This document shows, piece by piece, positions 13,472 through 49,524 of a stretch of DNA of 49,816 nt (positions within the stretch are counted from its first letter, which is position 1; every line of letters starts with the position of its first letter). A model generated the notes under the pieces. That model was not told where the DNA came from and did not search any database. It saw only the letters and a program-made list of their open reading frames with translations. Location: assembly GCA_009782385.1 (NCBI GenBank), contig WRJE01000008.1, forward strand, positions 1-49,816, in the 5' to 3' direction. The position numbers and the translations under genes are program-made. Source of the DNA: Oscillospiraceae bacterium. GTDB lineage: Bacteria > Bacillota > Clostridia > Oscillospirales > UBA929.

Positions 13472-14902
13472 CTACCTATCCAACAGCCCTTTCAATATCT
13501 CCCTGACGGCGGCGGTGTCGGCCTTTCCGCGCGTTTTACCCATAACGCTGCCGAAGAACGAATCGAACACCTGCACCTTGCCGCCTTTGTATTTCTCAAC
13601 GCCCTTGGGGTTGCCCTCCACGGCCTCCTCGCACAGGCGCGTCAGCAAATCGCGGTCGGTAATCATGCCGCTGCTCTTTATATACTCGTCAAGGTCGATG
13701 TCTTTGCCGTCATATAATTCATAAAAAATCTTTTTTGCCGTGTTGCGGTTTACCGTGTTGTCAAGCACGGCTTTTATTATTTTCGAGAATTTTTCCCAGT
13801 CAAAGGTTATGTCCTCTATTTCCTTTTCCTCGCGTTTAAGGCGGCTCAGAAGCTCCACAATCAGCCAGTTGGCAACCTCTTTCGGGTTGCCGCAGTATGA
13901 CACTGTCTCCTCGAAAATCTCGGAGAGACGCTTGCTCTCCGTAAGCAGATTTGTGTCATAGTCGCCCAATCCGTATTGCGTGATGAAACGGTTATACTTT
14001 TCTCCGGGCATTTCCGGCAGTGAGGATTTGACGTTTTTGACCCACTCGTCACTGATGACTATCGGGGCAACATCGGGATTGGGGAAGTATCTGTAATCGG
14101 TAGCGTCTTCCTTGGTTCTCATGGAATAGCTCCTGTTTTTCTCATCGTCCCAGCGGCGCGTCTCCTGCACGATTTCCTCAAAGCCTGTCTCCAACGCGTC
14201 TATCTGGCGGTTCTTCTCGTACTCAATGGCGTTTTTAATGGATCTGAAAGAGTTGAGATTTTTCACCTCCACCCTTGTCCCATATTTTTCATCGCCGACC
14301 TCGCGCACGGAAATATTGATGTCTACACGCATTGAACCCTCGTGCATTTTGCAGTCCGAAACCTCGGCGTATATGAGCAGTGCGCGAAGCCGCCGAAGAT
14401 AGGCGGCGACTTCCTCCGCGCTGCGAAAATCAGGCTCGCTGACAATCTCAATCAGCGGAACGCTCGCGCGGTTAAAGTCCACCATAGAGGAACTCGAACC
14501 GGGCATATGCACCAGTTTACCCGCGTCCTCCTCTATGTGAATCTGCTTTAGGCGGATTTTTTTCGTGCCGTCTTTCGTCTCAATGCCGACCCAGCCGTTT
14601 CTGCATATTGGAGCGTATAACTGCGTAATCTGATGACCCGTGGGCAAATCCGGATAGAAATAATTCTTCTTATCAAAAGTGATTGTCTCCGTAATCTCGC
14701 TGTTGGTGGCAAGCGCGGCCTTTATGCCGAACTCGACCGCCCTTTTATTGACAACAGGGAGCAGACCCGGCATCCCGGCGCAGGCGGGGCATACGTTTTC
14801 GTTGGCTTCCGCGCCGAACTTCGCGGAACATCCGCAAAACAGCTTTGAATCTGTCGCCAGCTCCACATGAACTTCCAATCCCATAACAACTTCATATTGC
14901 AT
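13472..14902 (-). CDS. gatB: Asp-tRNA(Asn)/Glu-tRNA(Gln) amidotransferase subunit B
   Basis: 476 residues, the normal length. The N-terminal VMGLEVHVELAT, the zinc-site cysteines (FCGCSAKFG and CPACAGMPG), the kinase-like core (RASVPLIEIVSEPD) and the C-terminal YqeY-like tRNA-binding tail (GNPKGVEKYKGGK, GSVMGKTRGKAD) are all intact. GatB phosphorylates and then amidates misacylated tRNA using ammonia normally delivered by GatA. It follows the GatA-like gene by 45 bases, a spacer containing part of a palindromic repeat. Only this subunit and GatC look standard here. Confidence 0.97.
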   Translation of the reverse strand: MQYEVVMGLEVHVELATDSKLFCGCSAKFGAEANENVCPACAGMPGLLPVVNKRAVEFGIKAALATNSEITETITFDKKNYFYPDLPTGHQITQLYAPICRNGWVGIETKDGTKKIRLKQIHIEEDAGKLVHMPGSSSSMVDFNRASVPLIEIVSEPDFRSAEEVAAYLRRLRALLIYAEVSDCKMHEGSMRVDINISVREVGDEKYGTRVEVKNLNSFRSIKNAIEYEKNRQIDALETGFEEIVQETRRWDDEKNRSYSMRTKEDATDYRYFPNPDVAPIVISDEWVKNVKSSLPEMPGEKYNRFITQYGLGDYDTNLLTESKRLSEIFEETVSYCGNPKEVANWLIVELLSRLKREEKEIEDITFDWEKFSKIIKAVLDNTVNRNTAKKIFYELYDGKDIDLDEYIKSSGMITDRDLLTRLCEEAVEGNPKGVEKYKGGKVQVFDSFFGSVMGKTRGKADTAAVREILKGLLDR

Positions 14903-14933: not shown

Positions 14934-14983
14934 TGTAGGGGCGGCTATTAGCCGCCCGCGGACGACCAAAGGTCGTCCCTACA
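14934..14983. repeat. Composite TGTAGGG...CCCTACA palindromic repeat overlapping the end of the gatA-like gene
   Basis: Two palindromes side by side, GGGGCGGCTATTAGCCGCCC and GGACGACCAAAGGTCGTCC, bounded by the outer inverted ends TGTAGGG and CCCTACA. It encodes the last 11 residues and the stop codon of the GatA-like protein. Confidence 0.8.
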
Positions 14984-15904
14984 CAGATAAAAATTTTCAT
15001 CGAAATTTTTAACAAGTATCTGACGGTTATTTACGGTGAGTGACGGACACCCCACCAAGTCGGACAACGCCGATGTCACGGGCAGAACGATATAGTCGAG
15101 ATTTTCCATATGCCTGTCAAATTCATCTTTTATCAAACGCCTGAGCCTCAACGCTTTCAGGTAATACCGCTCAAATTGTCCTTCCATAAGCACATACGCG
15201 CCCATGAGGGCTTTCTGTTTCGTCTCGACCGTGAAGCACTCGCTCCGCGTATTTGTAATGACATCATTTACATTCTTAAAATTTTCGGTTCTGTATCCGT
15301 ATTTCAAGCCGTCAAATCTCGATATATTATGGCAGAACTCCGCCGCCGATATAATCGTGTGTACTTGGTCAAAATAATCGGCGTACTTTGTGACATAGTC
15401 TGCTGTTTTGTAGGGGACGCTGTCCTCAGCGTCCCGTTTATTCGGTATACCCTGATATGACATACCGTCTTTTTCGTCATGCCCCGCAATCGCTGACAGC
15501 ACCGCTAAAGCGTCTTCGGCGGTTTTCGCGTAAACGCCAACACAATCCATCGAGGATACATTAGCCGCGATACCGTAGCGCGAAACAGTTCCGTATGTCG
15601 GCTTGAGATAGACAATATTATGTTCGGCGGCGGATTTCCGCGCCGCGCCGTCCGTGTCCAATCCCAACGCGGCATCGACCGCGCCGCTGCTCACCAAAGA
15701 GGCGGCACAGTTTTGCGGAGACGCGCCGTTGCCGAACTCACCTATTCCGGAACGGCACGCAACCGTCATGCCCGCCGCTGTCAGCTTGTCTACTACTGTC
15801 GCGGTATATGGTGGTCTGAAATTATACAGCATTTTTGACCCGGCGGTACATATTTCGTCTTTGACAAATATGTTTTCATCTATGGCTATTTTATATGGCT
15901 TCAT
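14948..15904 (-). CDS. GatA-like amidase homologue with catalytic residues replaced (probable pseudoenzyme)
   Basis: 318 residues against ~485 for GatA. Homology is clear (SKMLYNFRPPYTATVVDKL, KPTYGTVSRYGIAANVSSMD, ISRFDGLKYGYR, GAYVLMEGQFERYYLKA). The catalytic AIKDN lysine is Asp9 (IAIDEN). The glycine-rich GGSSGGS loop reads GASPQNCAA. The nucleophile motif DTGGS reads DTDGA (Ala87). The N-terminal ~70 residues are missing, yet the start has a good AGAGGAG site. One palindromic repeat lies in frame inside the gene (encoding RDAEDSVPYK) and another supplies the C-terminal CRDDLWSSAGG and stop. The open frame and position before gatB argue for retention; hydrolysis of glutamine looks impossible. 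Confidence 0.9.
   Translation of the reverse strand: MKPYKIAIDENIFVKDEICTAGSKMLYNFRPPYTATVVDKLTAAGMTVACRSGIGEFGNGASPQNCAASLVSSGAVDAALGLDTDGAARKSAAEHNIVYLKPTYGTVSRYGIAANVSSMDCVGVYAKTAEDALAVLSAIAGHDEKDGMSYQGIPNKRDAEDSVPYKTADYVTKYADYFDQVHTIISAAEFCHNISRFDGLKYGYRTENFKNVNDVITNTRSECFTVETKQKALMGAYVLMEGQFERYYLKALRLRRLIKDEFDRHMENLDYIVLPVTSALSDLVGCPSLTVNNRQILVKNFDENFYLCRDDLWSSAGG
15409..15435. repeat. TGTAGGG-family palindrome inside the gatA-like coding region
   Basis: TGTAGGGGACGCTGTCCTCAGCGTCCC contains a perfect 9-bp stem (GGGACGCTG / CAGCGTCCC) with a 4-base loop. It lies in frame within the gatA-like CDS. Confidence 0.8.
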
Positions 15905-15923: not shown

Positions 15924-16349
15924 TCATTTTCTTCTCATTTCACCTGTTCTAAGTAACCGCAAAATATCTTCCTCTGTCTCTAAATCATAATCACCGGTAT
16001 AACCATCTCTGTGATATTCCACCCCATTGTTATAATTCCGCATTATATATTCCGCAAAATTATCAAGCCCGTCTTCTTTAATACATTTAACAAAAGTTTT
16101 TAATCTTAAATGCCCGTTAAACATATCTTTATCACAGGAAAAATCAGGACACTCCCAACACCCGTTCAATCCTTTTTCACGGCAGCACCTATATTGAAAA
16201 CATCCGTCAGGTGTCATGTTTTTACCGCAGTGGTTTTCTGCCCTGCAATCACAGCTGCCGTCAGGACTGCATAATCGGCACAGCAATCCGCAATATGAAA
16301 TAGATTTTTTGATTTGTTCCGCTGTCATTTCTCTTTCTTTCGGTTTCAT
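15924..16349 (-). CDS. DUF3795-type cysteine-rich protein
   Basis: 141 residues, or 135 from the internal Met at MTAEQ. YCGLLCRLCSPDGSCDCRAENHCGKN, then CFQYRCCREKGLNGCWECPDFSCD, is the cysteine pattern of the DUF3795 family. At least eleven cysteines in 60 residues imply metal or Fe-S binding. The C-terminal part (LRLKTFVKCIKEDGLDNFAEYI) is helical. The function of this family is not known. It lies 19 bases upstream of the gatA-like gene. A second, shorter member is encoded at 30351-30611. Confidence 0.85.
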   Translation of the reverse strand: MKPKEREMTAEQIKKSISYCGLLCRLCSPDGSCDCRAENHCGKNMTPDGCFQYRCCREKGLNGCWECPDFSCDKDMFNGHLRLKTFVKCIKEDGLDNFAEYIMRNYNNGVEYHRDGYTGDYDLETEEDILRLLRTGEMRRK

Positions 16350-16399: not shown

Positions 16400-17854
16400 T
16401 TATAACTTTTTGGAAACCGCCGAATAATAACACGGAAAAAAGACGCATACAGACAGCACCAAGAGTAAAGCTACACCCGAGAATAAACTGAGCGGGGCAG
16501 CCATAAAAAAGCTGAACGGAAATGTAAACGGGAACACCGCAATGCCCGCAGCTAAGATGAATACGGGGATAAAATAAACCATTCTTTTAGAGGTCAATTT
16601 TATCCTTTCCCGCTTCCCGTTGCGGATTTGACGCTTCAATCGGACTGTAATAACCATCATCAATATTATACCGATTATGCAAAGAACGGTCACAATCGAA
16701 AAGATAATGTCAAAAATAACCCAAATATCGGGACTGTATGCTATGATGTCCTTACCCTCGAGTATATTTAATATATTCTCGGCAATGTTACCTGTGTTTG
16801 ATACCGCGCTCAGATTTGTCAATACACATACGCCGATATTACTTTGGGGACGTATAGCGATAAATGATGAAAATCTTGCCGTTGAGCCGGAATGATAGAT
16901 TTCACCTGTTTCATCTCCTATAGACCACCCGGCTGCGTAATGCGAACCGCCCATATCACTGACGGGGTTAAACTGATGGGACTTCTTTATAATTCTTTGA
17001 AATTGTTCGGAAACTTCTATGTTTCCCATCTGGATTTGCACCCAACGACCCATGTCCCGCAAATTGGAATATATATAGCCTTCCGGTACATTTCCTTCTG
17101 ACGCAGGAACATAGCTCGGCCATGCCCGAAAGAAGGACAGCCGATTGCCTTCTATCACTAACCCTGTATTCATGGCATTTTCGGGCGACGCGTATGTGCT
17201 GTTAAGTCCTAGCGGCAACAGGATACGCTCTGTCAAAAAATCATTATAATTCCGTCCCGAAACTACCTCAATTATCAATCCGAGAATACGATAATTTGTA
17301 TTTGCGTAAGCATATTGCTGTGACGGGTAAAACGCTAATTCTTTTCCGTTTGCCAGACGCACACCTTCTTCAACAGACATTCCAACGCTTGCGCTGGGGT
17401 ATTTGTCGCTGTTAGTGAAACCGCTTGTTTGATAGAGCAGATTAGCGATTGTAAACGCTTCGGGCGGTACGCTTTCCCCATCATAGGATACCGTAAACCA
17501 AGGGAGATATTCGCTGACAGGGTCATCGAGCGAGAGCAATCCTTCATCTTCCAAGAGAAGAATGCCAAGCCCTGTATAGGCTTTTGATAAAGAACCAATT
17601 TGAAATAACGTGTTCATATCGGCAGCCGTTCTGCCGTTTTTATTAGTATCCGGGTAGAATAGATATTCTGTTTCCTCCCCGCGCATGATTGCGATGGCGG
17701 CGTTCGGGATTTTAGCTTTTGCGAGTTCATTCAAAATAACACTATCAACTTGCTCACGGTCGGAGGATTCTGCGGCGGCGTTTGTTTGCGCTGAAAATAT
17801 AATGGTTATGGCGATAAAACATACGATGGTTATGTATACAATAGCTCTCTTCAT
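16400..17854 (-). CDS. Membrane-anchored serine hydrolase, beta-lactamase class C / penicillin-binding protein-like
   Basis: 484 residues. An N-terminal signal peptide precedes the catalytic domain. The nucleophile motif is Ser88-Leu-Ser-Lys91 in QIGSLSKAYTG, followed by a YANTNYRILG (YxN) motif and an HSG motif (YHSGSTARFSS) replacing KTG. Three hydrophobic segments at the C-terminus (from about residue 380) anchor it in the membrane. It may be an esterase, D-aminopeptidase-like enzyme or a peptidoglycan hydrolase; substrate cannot be told. No other wall genes adjoin. It lies between the HD-GYP and DUF3795 genes, inside the interrupted gatC...gatB run. Confidence 0.88.
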   Translation of the reverse strand: MKRAIVYITIVCFIAITIIFSAQTNAAAESSDREQVDSVILNELAKAKIPNAAIAIMRGEETEYLFYPDTNKNGRTAADMNTLFQIGSLSKAYTGLGILLLEDEGLLSLDDPVSEYLPWFTVSYDGESVPPEAFTIANLLYQTSGFTNSDKYPSASVGMSVEEGVRLANGKELAFYPSQQYAYANTNYRILGLIIEVVSGRNYNDFLTERILLPLGLNSTYASPENAMNTGLVIEGNRLSFFRAWPSYVPASEGNVPEGYIYSNLRDMGRWVQIQMGNIEVSEQFQRIIKKSHQFNPVSDMGGSHYAAGWSIGDETGEIYHSGSTARFSSFIAIRPQSNIGVCVLTNLSAVSNTGNIAENILNILEGKDIIAYSPDIWVIFDIIFSIVTVLCIIGIILMMVITVRLKRQIRNGKRERIKLTSKRMVYFIPVFILAAGIAVFPFTFPFSFFMAAPLSLFSGVALLLVLSVCVFFPCYYSAVSKKL

Positions 17855-18008: not shown

Positions 18009-19265
18009 TTATTTATTCCTTTTCAAATCGGCTCTTATACTCGCGTATTCATTGTTCATTTCATCATACGCCTGTATAATCGGCTTGGCTTCCTTCTCTA
18101 TCTCTTCTGTTATATCGTCAAAACGCTCAACCGCCATTGCGGTTATTTTTTGGTCTATTAGATCTTTAGAACTCATATCGCTCAATATCCCAACGATTTT
18201 TTCTTTTGAAAAAGAGTTTTTATAACTGCGAGTTCCGTATAACGCGCCGAAAATATCGGCTATTGACACAATTCTTTCGGAAAATGAAATGTCTTTGCTC
18301 TCCAGTTGATTCGGATACCCCGTTCCGTTTATTTTTTCATGGTGATTGACGGCGATATTCTTAATATCTTCATCCACATTCCCTTTAAGAATCTTCCCCG
18401 TTATCGTTACATGAGTTTTCATAATGTCCATTTCAGCATCGCTTAGTTTACCCGGGCTTTCCAAAATATTAAGCGGTATACCGATTTTGCCGATGTCATG
18501 CAGCATAGCTCCTGTTTGAATTTTCTCTATTACGGTGCTGTCCGCGCCCAATAAGCTCGCCAGCATACCGGAAATACAGACCGTGCCGACCGTATGTATA
18601 ACCGTTTGACTGCTTCGGAAATCTATTGAATATATAATCATTTTAATATATCCGCTTACTTCGTCATCGGTCAAATGAGTGTTAAAAAGGCTGTCATAAA
18701 ACTCAGCATCGGTGTCGATTTCATCAAAGGCCGTGTCAATATTGACACCGGATGATAAAAACATATCCACAACGTCACTGCGGTATTTAATATCTCTTTG
18801 CTGATTCAAATATGCCTTGAGACTTTTGTCACTCCCGCCGTGCAGTGAAAAAACATCGGCTCTGTCACACAGGGATATGAGTTGTGCAAGCACTTGATAT
18901 TCGGGATTGTCAAGGTTCTTTAACTCATCGCAGTCCGCGTGATGGTATAAGATGATAGGAGACATTTCTTCAAGCGGCGAAAAATATTTCAGAAAAAGAT
19001 ACCCGTAGATAGAATGCTCCCATACGTCAACCGTTTCAAATATCACCATTTTGTCAACTTCTTCCGTTTTATAAGCCCCTATGTCATGAAGCATTCCGAG
19101 AATCAGAATGTCACGCAGCCGCTTCCTTTCATATTTACGCAGCGGATTCAATACTCTGTACATTAAATACGCAACCCGCTTGCCATGGTCAACTAATCTC
19201 GCGTCCATGTGATTCAAGGTGTTTTCCATGATGTTAATCATTTTTTCATTCTTTGTCAGCTGCAT
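18009..19265 (-). CDS. Tandem HD / HD-GYP domain protein, predicted cyclic dinucleotide phosphodiesterase
   Basis: 418 residues. The first HD domain has HGKRVAYLMY, GMLHDIGAYKT, WEHSIYGY and YHHAD. The second has MLHDIGKIGIP, KTHVTITGKIL, NHHEKINGTGYP (the GYP-type loop) and SIADIFGALYGTRSY. The second half matches HD-GYP phosphodiesterases that hydrolyse c-di-GMP or related cyclic dinucleotides. No sensory or receiver domain and no membrane segment is visible, so it is a cytoplasmic stand-alone enzyme. It is 26 bases downstream of gatC. Confidence 0.9.
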   Translation of the reverse strand: MQLTKNEKMINIMENTLNHMDARLVDHGKRVAYLMYRVLNPLRKYERKRLRDILILGMLHDIGAYKTEEVDKMVIFETVDVWEHSIYGYLFLKYFSPLEEMSPIILYHHADCDELKNLDNPEYQVLAQLISLCDRADVFSLHGGSDKSLKAYLNQQRDIKYRSDVVDMFLSSGVNIDTAFDEIDTDAEFYDSLFNTHLTDDEVSGYIKMIIYSIDFRSSQTVIHTVGTVCISGMLASLLGADSTVIEKIQTGAMLHDIGKIGIPLNILESPGKLSDAEMDIMKTHVTITGKILKGNVDEDIKNIAVNHHEKINGTGYPNQLESKDISFSERIVSIADIFGALYGTRSYKNSFSKEKIVGILSDMSSKDLIDQKITAMAVERFDDITEEIEKEAKPIIQAYDEMNNEYASIRADLKRNK

Positions 19266-19291: not shown

Positions 19292-19579
19292 TTAATCCAA
19301 TATTCTCGGCACAACAAAATACCCGTTGTGCCGCTCGGGGGCGTTTTCGGTCAGAATTTCCGCGCTCGATGTCTTGACCGCGATGTCCTCGCGCATTACA
19401 TTGACGAGCGTTGACGGCGTAATAAGCGGCTCAACGCCCTCGGTGTCTATGCCGTCAAGCATATCGAACTGTTTTGTATGAAGCTCAAAATACTCTTGGG
19501 TTTTTTCACGTTCAGCGTCTGACAGGTTAATCTTCGTCACTAACTCCAGTTTTTGCATTGTTTCGCTTGTAATAGACAT
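19292..19579 (-). CDS. gatC: Asp-tRNA(Asn)/Glu-tRNA(Gln) amidotransferase subunit C
   Basis: 95 residues, normal for GatC. VTKINLSDAEREKTQEYFELHTKQFDML followed by VEPLITPSTLVNVMREDI and the C-terminal FVVPRILD are family features. GatC wraps the GatA/GatB interface. Here it lies directly downstream of aspS but is separated from the gatA-like gene and gatB by three unrelated genes (about 3.4 kb). That is unusual, because gatCAB is normally contiguous. Confidence 0.93.
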   Translation of the reverse strand: MSITSETMQKLELVTKINLSDAEREKTQEYFELHTKQFDMLDGIDTEGVEPLITPSTLVNVMREDIAVKTSSAEILTENAPERHNGYFVVPRILD

Positions 19580-19596: not shown

Positions 19597-19677
19597 GGGC
19601 GGCATATATGCCGCCCCTACGGTTTTGCGGACGACTAATAACCGCGTTTCTGCGGGCGGACGAGACGGCCGCCCCTA
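19597..19677. repeat. Composite palindromic repeat between gatC and aspS
   Basis: A perfect 20-bp palindrome GGGCGGCATATATGCCGCCC is followed by CCTAC, a degenerate middle unit (GCGGACGACTAATAACCGCG) and GGGCGGACGAGACGGCCGCCCCTAC. The TAG of the GTAGGGG end, read on the minus strand, is the stop codon of aspS. Confidence 0.75.
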
Positions 19678-21414
19678 CCTAATCTTTATGTGAGTTTCTC
19701 TTAGCTGTAATTCATTTACCGTGCCGGGTGCGCCCAACAGTAAATCCTGCGCGTTGCTGTTCATCGGGAACGCAACGACCTCGCGTATATTTTTCTCACC
19801 TGTCAGCAACATTACGATGCGGTCAACGCCGGGAGCCATTCCCGCGTGGGGCGGCGCACCGTATTGAAAAGCGTTGTACAACGCGCCGAACTTGCCTTTG
19901 ACCGTCTCCTCGTCATACCCCGCCAGCTCAAACGCCTTAACCATTATTTCGGGTACATGGTTACGCACCGCGCCGGAGGACAGTTCAACGCCGTTGCAGA
20001 CAATGTCGTATTGATATGCCTTTATTTCCAAGGGTTCTTGTGAGTTCAGAGCGTCCAAGCCGCCCTGCGGCATGGAGAACGGATTATGTGAAAACTCAAT
20101 TTTTCCCGTTTCCTCGCTTATCTCATACATCGGGAAATCCACAATAAAGCACATCTCGTATCTGCTTTCATCGGTCAGCTCCATGCGGCTGCCCAGCTCG
20201 TCTCTAATCTGCCCCGCGAGCCGATTCACGATACTGATGTTGTCCGATATGAAGAACAGCGTATCACATTCTTTCATGTTCAGCATTTCCATGAGTTTAC
20301 TCTGTTTTTCATCGGACAGGAATTTTACAATCGGTCCTTTCAGCGTTCCGTCCGGCAGGACGGAGATATAACCCAGTCCTCTCATGCCGATTTTTGTAGC
20401 GAAGTCGAGCATACCCTCAAAGAATGAGTTGGTTTTCTTGCCGCATTCCGGCACGACTATGCCGCGCACGGGCTTGCCCTTAAACGGCATGAAGTCCACA
20501 TCTTTGAAAAAATCGGACAAGTCATTGATTAACAGCGGATTTCTAAGGTCGGGCTTATCCGTGCCGTATTTCAGCATACTTTCATTGTACGGTATCCTCG
20601 CGAACGGCGGCGGAGATACATATTTATCGGAGAAATTTTTGAAAGTATCGTAAAGAGCCTTTTCGGCAACGGCAAACACATCCTCTTGAGTTGCGAACGC
20701 CATCTCAAAGTCAAGCTGATAGAACTCACCGGGGGAGCGGTCAAGCCGTGAATCCTCATCGCGGAAGCAGGGCGCGATTTGGAAATAACGGTCGAAGCCC
20801 GACACCATCAGCAGCTGTTTGAATATTTGGGGTGCTTGCGGCAGCGCGTAAAACATTCCGTGATGCTTGCGGCTTGGAACGATGTAATCTCTCGCGCCTT
20901 CCGGGGAGGATGAGGTGAGAATGGGTGTTTGAATCTCCATAAAGCCTATTTCTTCCATCTTTGAGCGCAGATAGCTGATTATCCGCGAACGCTCAACGAT
21001 ATTTTTATGGATTTTCGGATTGCGAAGGTCTAAGAAACGGTTTTTAAGGCGCACATCTTCTCTCGTAGCTGTTGAGTTGTTTATCTCGAAGGGCAAATGC
21101 GGGTTAGCGCGGCTTAAAACCTCAAATGAGCCGGTTTTTACTTCTATATAACCCGTGCTTATCTTTTCGTTTATGGTTTCATCATCGCGTTTGACAACAG
21201 TACCCGACACGGAAATGACGCTCTCCCTTGTCAGACCCGCAATCATGCCGTCATCGGACAGGACAACCTGTGTAACCCCGTAATGGTCGCGCAAGTCAAT
21301 GAAGATTACGCCGCCGTGGTCGCGTATTGTATCGACCCAGCCCGCCAGCTTTACCTGTTCATTTATATTCTTTTCCCCTAACTCGTTGCACGTATGCGTT
21401 CTGTAGATATTCAT
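19675..21414 (-). CDS. aspS: Aspartyl-tRNA synthetase
   Basis: 579 residues, typical of the bacterial type. It has the OB-fold N-terminus (VKLAGWVDTIRDHGGVIFIDLRDH), class II motif 2 (FRDEDSRLDRSPGEFYQLD) and motif 3 (GMAPGVDRIVMLL). The start is at MNIYRTHTC behind GGAGGATAAGA; the longer track start adds 11 unlikely residues. It charges tRNA-Asp. Linkage to gatC fits a non-discriminating enzyme that also makes Asp-tRNA-Asn for amidation, but that cannot be proved from sequence alone. A leader hairpin precedes it. Confidence 0.96.
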   Translation of the reverse strand: MNIYRTHTCNELGEKNINEQVKLAGWVDTIRDHGGVIFIDLRDHYGVTQVVLSDDGMIAGLTRESVISVSGTVVKRDDETINEKISTGYIEVKTGSFEVLSRANPHLPFEINNSTATREDVRLKNRFLDLRNPKIHKNIVERSRIISYLRSKMEEIGFMEIQTPILTSSSPEGARDYIVPSRKHHGMFYALPQAPQIFKQLLMVSGFDRYFQIAPCFRDEDSRLDRSPGEFYQLDFEMAFATQEDVFAVAEKALYDTFKNFSDKYVSPPPFARIPYNESMLKYGTDKPDLRNPLLINDLSDFFKDVDFMPFKGKPVRGIVVPECGKKTNSFFEGMLDFATKIGMRGLGYISVLPDGTLKGPIVKFLSDEKQSKLMEMLNMKECDTLFFISDNISIVNRLAGQIRDELGSRMELTDESRYEMCFIVDFPMYEISEETGKIEFSHNPFSMPQGGLDALNSQEPLEIKAYQYDIVCNGVELSSGAVRNHVPEIMVKAFELAGYDEETVKGKFGALYNAFQYGAPPHAGMAPGVDRIVMLLTGEKNIREVVAFPMNSNAQDLLLGAPGTVNELQLRETHIKIR

Positions 21415-21437
21415 TCTTATCCTCCGTATTAAAAATG

Positions 21438-21472
21438 CCTGTAACAAAACCGCGTAACGGTTCTGCTACAGG
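21438..21472 (-). terminator. Putative attenuator hairpin in the aspS leader
   Basis: On the transcript CCTGTAGCAGAACCG, loop TTACG, CGGTTTTGTTACAGG form a 15-bp stem (two G-U pairs). It is followed directly by CATTTTTAA and, 9 bases later, the aspS ribosome site. This has the shape of an intrinsic terminator inside a leader. No T-box sequence is visible. Confidence 0.55.
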
Positions 21473-23505: not shown

Positions 23506-26500
23506 TTAGATTTTCTTGTTGTTTCGCCATGATATAAAGTATACCGCGAATACCGATGACGACAGGCACATCAGGATAAAGTATTTAATTATACCGGAAT
23601 CGCCTGTTTTAGGATTGACCTTGACCGCTTCGGTGTCGTCAAATTCTGTGAGCGGCACGTCTTCGTCAAATATCCACTCGCCGTCATCTTCGCTCCAGTG
23701 CCATTCGCCCATCGGAACGCCGTAAGCGTCAAACTCAAAGAAGAATACATCGCCGTTTTCGTCTATGGAGGGCATAAGCGTGAACGCGGGATTGTGTGGA
23801 ACAGGCGGTATCTCGTGGATAACTCCTCCGGCGTGTGACTCATCGGGCTGATGTTCGTCAAAGTGCATAGTCGGGAAGTCTTCGGGAGTAGTTCCCTCCG
23901 GGAATCTTATTCTTTGAGGCTCGGGAGTAACGTCAGGTGTTGGATTTGGTGTCGGGTCGGGATTAGGGGTCGGGTCGGGGATTGGGTCTGAACTCGGTGT
24001 AATATCGGGTGTTGGACCCGGCTCGGGCTCGGGTTCGGACGTTGGCTCAGGTTCGGGTGTTGAGCTAGGGTCAGGTGTCGGTTCGGATTCCGGTGGAGTG
24101 CTGGGTTCTGGCGTTGAATCGGGATCCGGTGTCGGACTGGATTCTGGTGGAGTGCTGGGTTCTGGCGTTGGTGTTGGGTCTGAATCCGGCGGAGTGCTAG
24201 GCTCAGGTGTTGGACTGGGCTCTGGCGTTGGGTCTGGGTCTGGCGTTGGGTCGGGGTCGGGCGTTGGATCTGGGTCTGGCGTTGGGTCGGGGTCTGGTGT
24301 CGGGTCAGAGCCCGGATCTTCGCCGCCCGTTTTGTGTTCATATGTGTTTACAACCGTGACCGTCATATTTGTTCCCTGCGGAAATACCGCGTTATTGCCC
24401 TCATATGACACCGCGTAATGCGCGCCGCCAACCTCTTCCACAAGGTATTTGCAGTTAACCCAAAGATTAGTGACGGTTACGGGCTGACCCGCGCTTATGG
24501 TTATAACATCACCTGTAGAGCTGTCTGCGCTGCCGTTGTTCCCGTAGCAGTTGTATTCCGCGCCGCTGCCTGTAAACAGCAGATAGTTATCGTTGGTAAC
24601 GTCTTTTATACGCACCTGATATGTGGTATCATTGCCCGCGCTCCAGTCTGAGTAACTGCCCGCAAGCCGCTTGTTTATTATCATGTTGCCCGTTTTATGC
24701 TCGTATGTGTTGGTGACGGTCGCCGTGCTGTTCTGCCCGCCGGAGATGACCGATGACGCGCCGCCGCCCTCGTAGCGATAGTCGCTTACATACGCGCCGC
24801 TGTCTTCAACGACTGTGTACGCGCCGTCAGGCAGATTTATTATCCGCGCGGACTGACCCGCGCTGATGGTTATCGGGTTGCCGGAAGCGTCAGCTCCGTC
24901 ATACTCATACTCCGGTCCGCTGCCTTTAAGTTTCAGGAATTTACCGGATGAATCTTTTACCCGCGCTTGGAATGTGATGTCGTTATTAACACCCCAGTCG
25001 GCATAACCGCCCGCGAGCTTCTTGCTGACGATCAACGCGCCGGAGACCGCGATATAGTCGTTGTTTACCGTGATAGAAGTGTTTCCGCCGCTGCTGACCG
25101 CCGCGTTATTGCCGATATAGGACACGGTGCAGTTGCCATCGTCCAGTTCCTCGATTTCATATTTCCCGTCTGTAGGCAGACCCGTTATCATAATACTGTG
25201 TCCCGCGCTTACGGTAATAATATCTCCGGTTGAGCTGTCTGCGCTTCCGCTCAGACCTCTGAATTCATATTCCGGCTCATATCCGGAGAAGCGCAGATAC
25301 TCGCCCGTAACGGTATCCTTGACCCGTAAATCGAATGTAGTCGAAAGACTAACGCCCCAAGCGGTGTAACTGCCGCTGAGAGTTTTATTGATAACAAGGT
25401 TGCCCGTGCCTGAGCTGAACGTGTTAACCACCGTCACCGTGCGGTTCTCTCCATCGGGGAACGACACGTTATTTCCGGTATATGCCGCCGTGTAATGCGC
25501 TCCCGCTTTCTCGATTACCTCATACTCGGTATCAGACCAGAGATTCAGAAGCGTCAGCGGGCGTGACACGCTGAACGGCAGCTCCATCACGACATTCCCG
25601 CCGTAAGGTTCGCTAAGTCCGTCCACATCGTTACCCACGCACCGATAACTCCCGTCCGGTTCGGGGGTGTCCTTGAACAGTAAATTATTGTTGCGGGTAA
25701 CATCTTTTATCACGGCATAGAAGTTCTCATCGTTGTTAACGCTCCAGTCCGCGTAACTTCCGGAGAGGACTTTTTTGACTATAAGTCCGCCCGTGCCATG
25801 TTCATAGGTATTAACGACTGTTATCGTCTTATTTGCTCCCGTGGTAAGCGTGACGTTATTACCCTCATAAGTCGTTGTGAGATGCGCCGCGGCAGCTCCC
25901 GATGTCTCGTTGACCGCGTACATCCTGCCCGACCACATATTGGAAAGTCTTAACGGTTTGCCCTCGCTGACAGGAAGCTCCGTTATTGTCGCGCCGGAGT
26001 AATCAGCAGGATTGCTCAGACCGCTCGCGGTGTTCCCAACGCATTTATAGCTTCCGTCCGCCTCCGGTGTCGGCTTGAAAAGCAAAGTGTTGCCCATGGT
26101 GACATCCGAGACCTCAACATAGAAGTTGACGTTAGGGGTAATACCCCAATCGGAATAGCCGCCCTCAAGCCTTTTGTTGACTATCAAGATGCCCGTTCCG
26201 TGTTCATAATTGTTGGTTATAGCCACTTCGTCACTTCCGCCGCCGGAGAAGCTCGCCGTAAAGACCCCCTCCGCCGTGTAATGCGCGCCTTCGATCTCTT
26301 CAACCAAGTATGTAATATCGGCGGGGAGATTAAATATAATCGCTTCCTGCTCGGCGGTGAATGTTATTAAATCTCCGGTTGTGTCCGTACCGTTAAAGTC
26401 ATAGTAAGGACCCGTGCCAACCAGCCTTACATACGTATTGTTTGTAATATCTTTTATTTTCGCGTGAAACTCTGTCCTATCGGTAATACCCCAATCTCCA

Positions 26501-27894
26501 TGGTTCTCGCCCAGCGTCTTTCTGACCGTAAGCTGACCGGACTGTTCACCGCCGCCGCCGGACCAAGTGTTTTTGAACTCCCTGTCGCCTTTGGTGTATG
26601 TGACGACCGGGCTGCCGCCGCTGAGTGTGACCTTAACCTCGCGCACCGCCGTGTCGTATGTCCACTCGTCATCGCTGTAATCCGCCTCGTAGAGTTTGTA
26701 ATAGAAGGTGTCCGGAGTTCCCCAAGGGTTATACGGCATTACGACCGACAGCTCAAACTCCCCGCCTGTGGTGACAGTCGTAGCGGCTATGCCGTTGTTA
26801 TAAGTATATGTGCTGTCGCTCTCCGCCAGTGTGAATATAAAATCCCTTGGATTTTCCGTAGCACCGACTATGGTCTTTTCGCCGCTGATGATAAAAGAGA
26901 GTATTGAAAAACCGCCCTCGCCTGTTACAATGCTGCTCGTCTTAATGCTGTAATCGCCCCAGCCGCAGATTGCCTGTCTCCCCGCGCTGTCGGGACACCA
27001 GAAGAAAAACCCCTCGTTAGTTACGGAGCAGTCAACCGTTGCCTCGGCTTTGACAATCTGTACAATCCCGCTCGGAGGGCTGCCCATCTCAACATAGAAC
27101 TGATCGCCGTCTTTCATGACAGCCGAAGAACCCAAATATGCGTTATCGGGATAACTGCGAAGCTGATTTCCCATTTCGCCGCTGACTTTCACGGGTATTT
27201 TAGAACCCCAGATATCATATGGCATATTCATAGCAACAACTTCGAGTGTCAGCGGCCCGTAACATCCCGTTGCCGGGTCGTAGCCGCCATCGTAACTGAA
27301 GCCAATCTCTATTTCCGGGTCTCCGTAGGGCAGTGGGTTGTACGATGCCGCGCCCGCCGCGTCGCTGATAAGACCGTTATACACATCCAACATAGCGGCA
27401 TCAGCACCGTCCGGGGGCGTGAAACTTTTATTGCTGCTGTAATACCAAATTGCCCACTGGGTAACTACATATGCCTTTTCCGGCGTAAGTCCGCCGAAGG
27501 TTGTGCCGACACCCATGCCTCCGGACACAGTTCCCCGATACCCGTTCTTGGCTATCCAGAGCATTTGATCGCTGTAGTAGCTGCTCCAACCCACGCCGTC
27601 AGGGTCAAGCACCGTGTCGTATGTGCTTCCCGTGGATTTGCCTTTTTCGATGCAGTAAACCGCATAGTATGCCGAGCCGCTTTCGGTCTTCATACCCATA
27701 ATAGTAACGCCGTCTTCAGACGTGGGGTACTCCACCAGATTATGACTGCCGGTTTCGGCGGCCTGCCCTATCGGTATTGAAGCCACCGCCCACGGCAAGC
27801 ACATCAGAAAACAAAGAAAAATACTGGTAACACGCCGTGCCGTGCCGTTCCTCGATTTTGTGTGATTATGTATATGCCGATGTCTATTAAACAT
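23506..27894 (-). CDS. Large cell-wall adhesin: thioester domain, Spy0128-like domain, six repeats, Pro-rich stalk, NPKTG sorting signal
   Basis: 1462 residues from ATG at 27894 (GGAAGGGGG ribosome site). A long signal peptide is followed by a TQXA thioester domain: Cys81 (AVYCIEKG) and Gln146 (VVTQWAIW) would form the internal thioester used for covalent binding to host or surface amines. Next comes a pilin-type domain (GEKTIVGATENPRDFIFTLAE to EVKVTLSGG). Then come six ~110-residue repeats, each starting like LIVNKRLEGGYSDWGI. A 130-residue Pro/Asp/Thr/Ser/Glu stalk follows (PDPTPDPD units). The C-terminus is NPKTGDSGIIKYF, a hydrophobic segment and RNNKK: a sortase signal with Asn instead of Leu. 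No sortase gene is in the window. Confidence 0.92.
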   Translation of the reverse strand: MFNRHRHIHNHTKSRNGTARRVTSIFLCFLMCLPWAVASIPIGQAAETGSHNLVEYPTSEDGVTIMGMKTESGSAYYAVYCIEKGKSTGSTYDTVLDPDGVGWSSYYSDQMLWIAKNGYRGTVSGGMGVGTTFGGLTPEKAYVVTQWAIWYYSSNKSFTPPDGADAAMLDVYNGLISDAAGAASYNPLPYGDPEIEIGFSYDGGYDPATGCYGPLTLEVVAMNMPYDIWGSKIPVKVSGEMGNQLRSYPDNAYLGSSAVMKDGDQFYVEMGSPPSGIVQIVKAEATVDCSVTNEGFFFWCPDSAGRQAICGWGDYSIKTSSIVTGEGGFSILSFIISGEKTIVGATENPRDFIFTLAESDSTYTYNNGIAATTVTTGGEFELSVVMPYNPWGTPDTFYYKLYEADYSDDEWTYDTAVREVKVTLSGGSPVVTYTKGDREFKNTWSGGGGEQSGQLTVRKTLGENHGDWGITDRTEFHAKIKDITNNTYVRLVGTGPYYDFNGTDTTGDLITFTAEQEAIIFNLPADITYLVEEIEGAHYTAEGVFTASFSGGGSDEVAITNNYEHGTGILIVNKRLEGGYSDWGITPNVNFYVEVSDVTMGNTLLFKPTPEADGSYKCVGNTASGLSNPADYSGATITELPVSEGKPLRLSNMWSGRMYAVNETSGAAAAHLTTTYEGNNVTLTTGANKTITVVNTYEHGTGGLIVKKVLSGSYADWSVNNDENFYAVIKDVTRNNNLLFKDTPEPDGSYRCVGNDVDGLSEPYGGNVVMELPFSVSRPLTLLNLWSDTEYEVIEKAGAHYTAAYTGNNVSFPDGENRTVTVVNTFSSGTGNLVINKTLSGSYTAWGVSLSTTFDLRVKDTVTGEYLRFSGYEPEYEFRGLSGSADSSTGDIITVSAGHSIMITGLPTDGKYEIEELDDGNCTVSYIGNNAAVSSGGNTSITVNNDYIAVSGALIVSKKLAGGYADWGVNNDITFQARVKDSSGKFLKLKGSGPEYEYDGADASGNPITISAGQSARIINLPDGAYTVVEDSGAYVSDYRYEGGGASSVISGGQNSTATVTNTYEHKTGNMIINKRLAGSYSDWSAGNDTTYQVRIKDVTNDNYLLFTGSGAEYNCYGNNGSADSSTGDVITISAGQPVTVTNLWVNCKYLVEEVGGAHYAVSYEGNNAVFPQGTNMTVTVVNTYEHKTGGEDPGSDPTPDPDPTPDPDPTPDPDPTPDPDPTPEPSPTPEPSTPPDSDPTPTPEPSTPPESSPTPDPDSTPEPSTPPESEPTPDPSSTPEPEPTSEPEPEPGPTPDITPSSDPIPDPTPNPDPTPNPTPDVTPEPQRIRFPEGTTPEDFPTMHFDEHQPDESHAGGVIHEIPPVPHNPAFTLMPSIDENGDVFFFEFDAYGVPMGEWHWSEDDGEWIFDEDVPLTEFDDTEAVKVNPKTGDSGIIKYFILMCLSSSVFAVYFISWRNNKKI
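23930..24315 (-). repeat. Degenerate tandem repeat coding the Pro-rich stalk
   Basis: Runs of GG(T/C)(T/G)(C/T)(G/T)GG(C/T)GTTGG-like 12- and 18-base units encode alternating PDPTPDPD and PEPSTPP(D/E)S blocks of the adhesin. Such tracts are prone to slipped-strand length change. Confidence 0.8.
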
Positions 27895-27914
27895 TATATT
27901 TGCCCCCTTCCCGA

Positions 27915-27938
27915 GTGGACGGAATCCGTTTCCGTCCA
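27915..27938 (-). promoter_or_regulatory. Leader hairpins of the adhesin mRNA
   Basis: TGGACGGAA, loop, TTCCGTCCA (9-bp stem) lies just before the ribosome site, preceded by a smaller AGCGGA/TCCGCT hairpin. No known riboswitch consensus is recognised. The structure could tune translation or mRNA stability. Confidence 0.5.
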
Positions 27939-27968
27939 AGCGGACATTGAATCCGCTCTTACATAATG

Positions 27969-45446: not shown

Positions 45447-45589
45447 CACGGCAATTTAGTTTTGTAACTGTTTAATGCAAATCGTGGTGTAGGGGCGGCC
45501 ATTGGCCGTCCGTATCGTGTAAAAATTCGTATTTTTAACAACGGACGCGCAATGCGCGCCCCTACAAGTTACAAAACTAAATCGCCGTG
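45447..45589. mobile_element. 143-bp MITE-like element with 22-bp terminal inverted repeats
   Basis: The left end CACGGCAATTTAGTTTTGTAAC and right end GTTACAAAACTAAATCGCCGTG are reverse complements with one mismatch. They are flanked by identical 9-bp AAAACATAG duplications. The inside carries a nested palindromic structure (TGTAGGGGCGGCC...GCGCCCCTACA, plus AAAAA/TTTTT) and no coding capacity. It is a non-autonomous element presumably moved by a transposase encoded elsewhere; none is in this window. Confidence 0.85.
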
Positions 45590-48785: not shown

Positions 48786-49322
48786 CTACAGCAATTTCTG
48801 CACCCTTTTATATAGTATAAACGCCAAAATACAGTTTCCAAACGATTTTATCAAATTGAACGGCACGATTACCGGGATTAGCATACCCGCTACATCTCTC
48901 AACGAAGCGTGGGGGATAAACAGCGGCACAACGACAAGATTGAGCGGAATCATAATCACCGTGCTGGTCAACGCCCCAACAATCAGCGCGATAACCGCAC
49001 CCGAAAGGGTGCGTTTGTTTTGGTATATCAGCGAAGCGACAAAAACCATCAAGCCGGTCGAAACAAAGTGCATGATGAATCCCATCCACCCGCTTGCGGC
49101 ACTGACGGTCAACGCCTGAATGACACACGCCACGAACACCAGCACAAGTCCCGGCAGCGTTCCGTAAAATAACGCGCCGATAAGCAGAGGGATGTCGGCG
49201 GGGTCATACTCCATATGCGGAGCGGCGGGGAAGATTGGGAATCGGATTAAATACACCAACACAACGGCTACCGCCGCCAACAGACCGATGCCTGTTATGG
49301 TTCTGAGTTTGTCTTTGGACAT
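48786..49322 (-). CDS. ribU: ECF transporter S component, probably riboflavin-specific (RibU)
   Basis: 178 residues with about six hydrophobic segments. FPAAPHMEYDPADIPLLIGALFYG is the RibU-type substrate region, followed by GFIMHFVSTGLMVFVASLIY. The S component binds riboflavin in the membrane and works with a shared ECF energising module that is not in the window. The FMN riboswitch directly upstream supports the riboflavin assignment over other vitamins. Ribosome site AGGAGG. Confidence 0.93.
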   Translation of the reverse strand: MSKDKLRTITGIGLLAAVAVVLVYLIRFPIFPAAPHMEYDPADIPLLIGALFYGTLPGLVLVFVACVIQALTVSAASGWMGFIMHFVSTGLMVFVASLIYQNKRTLSGAVIALIVGALTSTVIMIPLNLVVVPLFIPHASLRDVAGMLIPVIVPFNLIKSFGNCILAFILYKRVQKLL

Positions 49323-49333
49323 AAAAATACCTC

Positions 49334-49513
49334 CTTCTCGTATCCGGACTTTTCACTGTTCCCGCAAAGGGAATAAATCCTTTTGCTTGAAAACAGCGAC
49401 TTACCGTCGGCATCGGAATCTCACCGAATTCAACCTTATATAAGGCTCGCGGGCTTGCCACGGTAAAACCGTGTATAACCGCCGGTGGGGAGTTTCACCC
49501 CGCCCCGAAAGAC
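49334..49513 (-). promoter_or_regulatory. FMN riboswitch (RFN element)
   Basis: On the minus strand: TTCGGGGCGGGGTGAAACTCCCCACCGGCGGT at the 5' side, the two internal stem-loops, GAATTCGGTGAGATTCCGATGCCGACGGT, and the closing GTCCGGATACGAGAAG. These are the conserved RFN blocks. It ends next to the ribU ribosome site (AAGGAGG), so control is probably at translation initiation, since no clear terminator is seen. Confidence 0.95.
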
Positions 49514-49524
49514 TTGTTGAGGGT

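Follow-up and report, generated by a model that had tools for sequence, protein, structure and literature searches.

A GatA-derived protein without glutaminase residues is maintained in gatCAB operons of gut Clostridia

In the textbook GatCAB amidotransferase, a glutaminase is coupled to the transamidase via an ammonia tunnel. The archaeal GatDE draws its ammonia from an asparaginase-like subunit. In the related yeast mitochondrial GatFAB, NH4Cl can substitute for glutamine in the GatA/GatB complex, so that amidation proceeds with it in vitro (PMC4027206). Clostridium acetobutylicum, also a member of the Clostridia, has an Asn-T-box gatCAB that serves a T-box-controlled, tRNA-dependent asparagine pathway beside redundant routes (Saad et al. 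2012, as cited in PMC4206432).

Here we describe a locus that resembles bacterial GatCAB in having gatC, a gatA-derived gene and gatB in one operon linked to aspS, with the GatB motifs and the GatA fold retained. Unlike in bacterial GatCAB, however, its GatA component is missing some 70 residues at the N-terminus as well as the Lys-cisSer-Ser triad and the Gln-binding Arg and Asp, and it belongs to a separate lineage with its own GatB clade. We refer to GatA of this glutaminase-dead form as GatA*. In the open-access literature (most subscription journals were outside our search) we found no description of a glutaminase-dead GatA. The GatA of yeast GatFAB is an active glutaminase. The C. acetobutylicum pathway, as far as the citation conveys it, is similar in its setting. 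In GatA* operons, the glutaminase subunit is dead and often the sole one. Some GatA* operons have a GatD/AnsA-like gene next to them, which recalls GatDE. Unlike GatDE, these operons encode bacterial-type GatB and GatC along with GatA*, and the asparaginase is missing from most loci.

The locus lies on a stretch of 49,816 nucleotides from an Oscillospiraceae bacterium (the window), and its features are listed in Table 1.

Table 1. Features of the gatCAB locus in the window and of the repeats within gatA*
Feature	Position	Strand	Remarks
gatB	13472..14902	-	Full-length gene, retains kinase/transamidase motifs; TIGR00133 548 bits (cut-off 314.8)
Double-hairpin repeat TGTAGGG...CCCTACA	14934..14983	.	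Gives last ~11 codons and stop of gatA*
gatA*	14948..15904	-	N-terminally truncated, glutaminase-dead GatA, 318 aa
TGTAGGG + GGGACGCTG/CAGCGTCCC palindrome	15409..15435	.	In frame, variable loop of gatA*
Residue 87 codon (Ala)	15644..15646	-	Ser nucleophile position, from alignment
Residue 9 codon (Asp)	15878..15880	-	Catalytic Lys position of GatA, from alignment
Intervening Cys-rich ORF	15924..16349	-	No gene at matching place in closest relative L104
Intervening serine beta-lactamase-fold protein	16400..17854	-	PF00144
Intervening HD-domain phosphodiesterase-like protein	18009..19265	-	PF13487/PF01966
gatC	19292..19579	-	TIGR00135 77 bits vs cut-off 47.1
aspS, bacterial-type AspRS	19675..21447	-	TIGR00459 606 bits; operon order in relatives

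The gatA* ORF encodes a GatA-derived protein in an open frame of 318 codons, with an ATG start and a GAGGAG ribosome site upstream. The protein scored 212 bits against TIGR00132, the GatA equivalog model, which is under the cut-off of 481, and 144 bits against the amidase family PF01425; a longer form of GatA* from other genomes also stays under the TIGR00132 cut-off (248–251 bits). The top Foldseek matches of its AlphaFold model (pTM 0.79, pLDDT 75) were GatA chains of GatCAB, with a TM score of about 0.8 and 24–29% identity. When the protein is aligned to canonical GatA, about 70 N-terminal residues are missing, the catalytic Lys is changed to Asp (residue 9, motif AIDEN), the cis-Ser is unconserved, the Ser nucleophile is changed to Ala (residue 87, motif DTDGA), the Gln-binding Arg is a Lys and the Gln-binding Asp is deleted. 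The triad and the Gln-binding residues expected of GatCAB are therefore not in place. The initial annotation had described this ORF as a GatA homologue beside gatB without amidase catalytic residues, with AIKDN turned into AIDEN, DTGGS into DTDGA, the first ~70 residues gone and a good ribosome site in front of the open frame; profiles, model and alignment bear out this description.

gatB follows immediately downstream of gatA*, and its product matches both PF02934 and PF02637. Between gatA* and the upstream gatC and aspS, which share its strand, lie three unrelated ORFs. The aspS, with which the operon begins in relatives, probably has its better start at the ATG at 21414. The beta-lactamase-fold gene between gatC and gatA* can be compared with the bro-1 beta-lactamase inserted in the Moraxella gatCAB operon, in so far as that case is cited in PMC8406222. 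Palindromic repeat DNA makes up the final ~11 codons of gatA* (CRDDLWSSAGG) and about 9 internal ones (RDAEDSVPY region). A further stretch resembling the repeat inside gatA*, bounded by TGTAGGGG...CCCCTACA, is found at 45488–45566.

Rather than a private decaying copy, GatA* represents a large lineage that selection maintains in gut Clostridia. When about 85,000 species genomes were scanned with the pattern [LI][RHK]PTYGTVS, at least 592 encoded relatives were obtained. The loci of the best 80 of these comprised 79 with a gatC-gatA*-gatB set and one canonical locus (L133); the three genes occurred together in the 79 wherever the flanks were covered, and aspS lay upstream of them in 71 of these 79 Clostridia loci. 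Nearly all genomes behind the GatA* counts are MAGs. Two forms of the protein could be distinguished. One of ~280–370 aa occurs in termite-gut Oscillospiraceae and others (MAGs of the G011/G013 kind discussed below are presumably of termite-gut origin), the other of ~370–400 aa in Clostridia from ruminant guts and their relatives, among them the isolate Fusibacillus kribbianus. Within the window's family, GatA* was present in 9 of 18 genomes, and eight family genomes, the window's included, carry it beside one kind of GatB that is 55–58% identical to that of the window. A class-wide sample contained 28 genomes out of 291 with only sub-cut-off long GatA matches, as counted by score alone.

Some loci displayed other arrangements. 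Three of them (L073, L082 and L083) are tandems in which a second gatCAB, whose GatB is of canonical type, comes after aspS-gatC-gatA*-gatB, and an asparaginase-like gene is located between or after the two sets. G009, the ninth family genome with GatA*, is 99% complete, has canonical GatCAB and lacks both AsnRS and GlnRS; its GatA* is an orphan, apparently a fusion with a GatC-like segment at the N-terminus, with no gatB adjoining (L038:6338-7573). GatA* operons also occur on two contigs binned as Spirochaetes/Treponema (L058, L066); their GatB falls with that of the Clostridia, which reflects a binning error or a transfer.

We scored the active-site residues in 83 aligned GatA* proteins, nine of them from the window's family. 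The catalytic Lys is kept in none, and the position is occupied by Asp in 66 and by Glu in 14. The Ser nucleophile is present in 17 of the 83. The Gln-binding Arg358 and Asp425 (S. aureus GatA numbering) are kept in no case. For 18 closely related GatA* pairs, dN/dS ranged from 0.06 to 0.20; GatB gave 0.02–0.08 in the related pairs where it was computable. The marks of a decaying copy named in the initial annotation were broken frames in relatives, an intact gatA elsewhere and a dN/dS close to 1. They were not observed: the frames are open in the inspected loci, the ratios are low and most of the named GatA* genomes (22/32) have yielded no canonical GatA. The conserved operon and the dN/dS values rule out a pseudogene across the lineage. 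At the level of sequence, the relatives document loss of the active site, conservation of the operon and purifying selection. Of 172 alignment columns without variation in the canonical GatB of the window's family, the GatB partners of GatA* keep 92 at ≥90%, including E10, H12, K79, E125 and D192; among the kept columns are metal- and tunnel-site residues known from GatCAB structures. In the GatB tree, a branch supported at 100/100 separates these partners from the rest, and the window GatB is sister to that of L104, whose operon is uninterrupted.

Using 32 named GatA* genomes, listed without completeness figures, we compared the routes to Asn-tRNA and Gln-tRNA. GlnRS scored over its cut-off in 27 and AsnRS in 12, and canonical GatA was present in 10 genomes and not found in the other 22. 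Twelve of these 22 are also without AsnRS (11 of the 12 have GlnRS), so that GatCA*B is the sole candidate found there for Asn-tRNA(Asn). Four genomes of the window's family likewise have GatA* only: G011 (91% complete), in which AsnRS and GlnRS are both absent, G013 (93%) and G014 (89%), which are without GlnRS, and G017 (94%), which is without AsnRS. These four and the 12 named genomes leave GatCA*B as the sole provider found of Asn-tRNA or Gln-tRNA; the window genome itself does not. The chance that a canonical gatA was missed in all four through independent incompleteness is 0.09 x 0.07 x 0.11 x 0.06, or about 4 in 100,000. Upstream of aspS, nine T-box leaders have the specifier AAC, an Asn codon, as read by position relative to the GAA-N-codon-A consensus; scans of the window and of termite-gut loci yielded no T-box. 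In many GatA* genomes, GatCA*B seems to be needed to decode Asn and sometimes Gln codons. Where GatA* is part of the only Asn-tRNA enzyme found, the ammonia of that enzyme should come from somewhere other than GatA.

We consider it fairly probable that GatCA*B is a working Asp-tRNA(Asn) amidotransferase, in places also acting on Glu-tRNA(Gln), that uses ammonia not released by GatA. GatA* would then be a conserved pseudo-glutaminase that obtains no ammonia from glutamine while retaining its amidase fold along with those blocks that should join GatB with GatC. The complex would bind the misacylated tRNA, GatB would use ATP to phosphorylate the side chain, and ammonia from outside GatA would then amidate this activated intermediate; in ammonia-rich guts, free NH3/NH4+ is the most likely source. 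Asn-tRNA(Asn) would be the chief product, joined by Gln-tRNA(Gln) in some lineages. Formation of the complex, its catalysis and its ammonia source are what we infer, and free ammonia is probably the donor. Ammonia is abundant in guts, and guts are most of the habitats named in the GatA* genome records. The proposal in the initial annotation that the protein acts as a scaffold with ammonia from elsewhere is strongly supported for the lineage. A point against this reading is that the canonical GatA present in 10 of the 32 genomes could serve both GatBs there.

Other explanations have to be weighed against an externally fed GatCA*B. A canonical GatA might be present and simply missed in incomplete assemblies, as the window genome is 88% complete and some relatives carry both operon kinds; since the four family genomes (89–94% complete) and the 22 of 32 others would all have to miss it, we regard this as extremely unlikely. 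It is also very unlikely that GatA* has gained a different active site and still hydrolyzes glutamine or another amide. An acidic residue stands specifically at the Lys position in 80 of 83 proteins, and a Lys is common six residues further on. However, the cis-Ser segment is degenerate or deleted, Arg358 and Asp425 are lost, the last third of the protein is shorter, and subclades differ in the motif surrounding the former nucleophile (DVFGH, DLNGA, DTDGA).

The ammonia could also be delivered in trans by a GatD/AnsA-like asparaginase-glutaminase encoded beside gatB, or by another glutaminase, docked on the complex. A PF00710 protein with the motifs GGT[IV], HGTD[TA] and SEN[ML] is encoded within 10 kb in 19 of about 80 loci, and no match was obtained in 12 canonical loci. 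It is close to the asnASE_I and GatD models, with scores below the TIGR02153 cut-off. In about 12 loci its gene directly follows a gatB in the same orientation, and in one locus its start overlaps the gatB stop by one base. A title in the reference list of PMC8406222 moreover names a glutaminase activity of a mycobacterial non-discriminating AspRS. On the other hand, the PF00710 gene is missing beside most GatA* operons, including the window and all loci of its family, and an asparaginase that is not glutamine-specific would tend to deplete asparagine. We hold a partner in trans, with GatCA*B then acting as a hybrid of GatCAB and archaeal GatDE, to be unlikely. That an outside donor replaced the built-in glutaminase, with a GatD-like protein on a GatCA*B core forming a bacterial counterpart of GatDE in some lineages, is slightly more doubtful. 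We looked for a general conserved ammonia-supplying partner gene, and the sole recurrent candidate was this asparaginase-like gene in its 19 loci.

The window copy itself has a different background. Both AsnRS and GlnRS score over their cut-offs in the window genome, and an archaeal-type aspartate--tRNA(Asn) ligase (AspRS2) is present. The initial annotation had called for a search for a second gatA, for asnA/asnB and for glnRS. No second amidase-family protein, canonical gatA included, was found in this genome at its 88% completeness, so a second gatA did not turn up; asnA is absent from all 18 family genomes searched, and full-length asnB was not found in the window genome, which does have GlnRS. 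Transfer-RNA-dependent asparagine synthesis with a non-discriminating AspRS is the likely remaining use of the window GatCA*B, in analogy to Bdellovibrio, Deinococcus and Thermus (PMC4206432). Given the two synthetases, the split operon and the two repeats, the window gatA* is probably either confined to asparagine synthesis or losing constraint.

A stronger version holds that this copy is a relic, made redundant by AsnRS and GlnRS and now decaying, while the protein functions elsewhere in the lineage. The repeats within gatA* with the replaced C-terminus, the three inserted genes and an identity of only 33–41% to other family members would fit, yet two insertions have not broken the 318-codon frame, both gatB and gatC remain intact, and AspRS2 is present with no asparagine synthetase found. 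In the comparison with L104, dS is saturated and only codon-position differences are usable; positions 1/2/3 differ by 0.39/0.31/0.64 in gatA* and by 0.42/0.33/0.64 in gatC. This resemblance indicates that GatA* was constrained for most of the divergence from L104, and a recent relaxation is possible. We consider a relic somewhat unlikely. The decaying copy with a working gatA elsewhere, which the initial annotation offered as an alternative, does not hold for the lineage, and what survives of it is a possible relaxed constraint on the window copy.

A large lineage of gut Clostridia thus appears to have lost the glutaminase while retaining the subunit. It offers a direct test of whether glutaminase coupling is dispensable in ammonia-rich habitats and a way to learn the roles of GatA besides hydrolysis. 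Annotations that name GatA* proteins GatA or amidase need correcting.

Elsewhere in the window, an ordinary FMN riboswitch (Rfam) at 49328–49516 is located upstream of a membrane protein at 48786–49322 that resembles a riboflavin ECF transporter component. The window also encodes a large surface-type protein of 1477 aa (23506–27939), in which similar blocks recur and the tail is Pro-rich.
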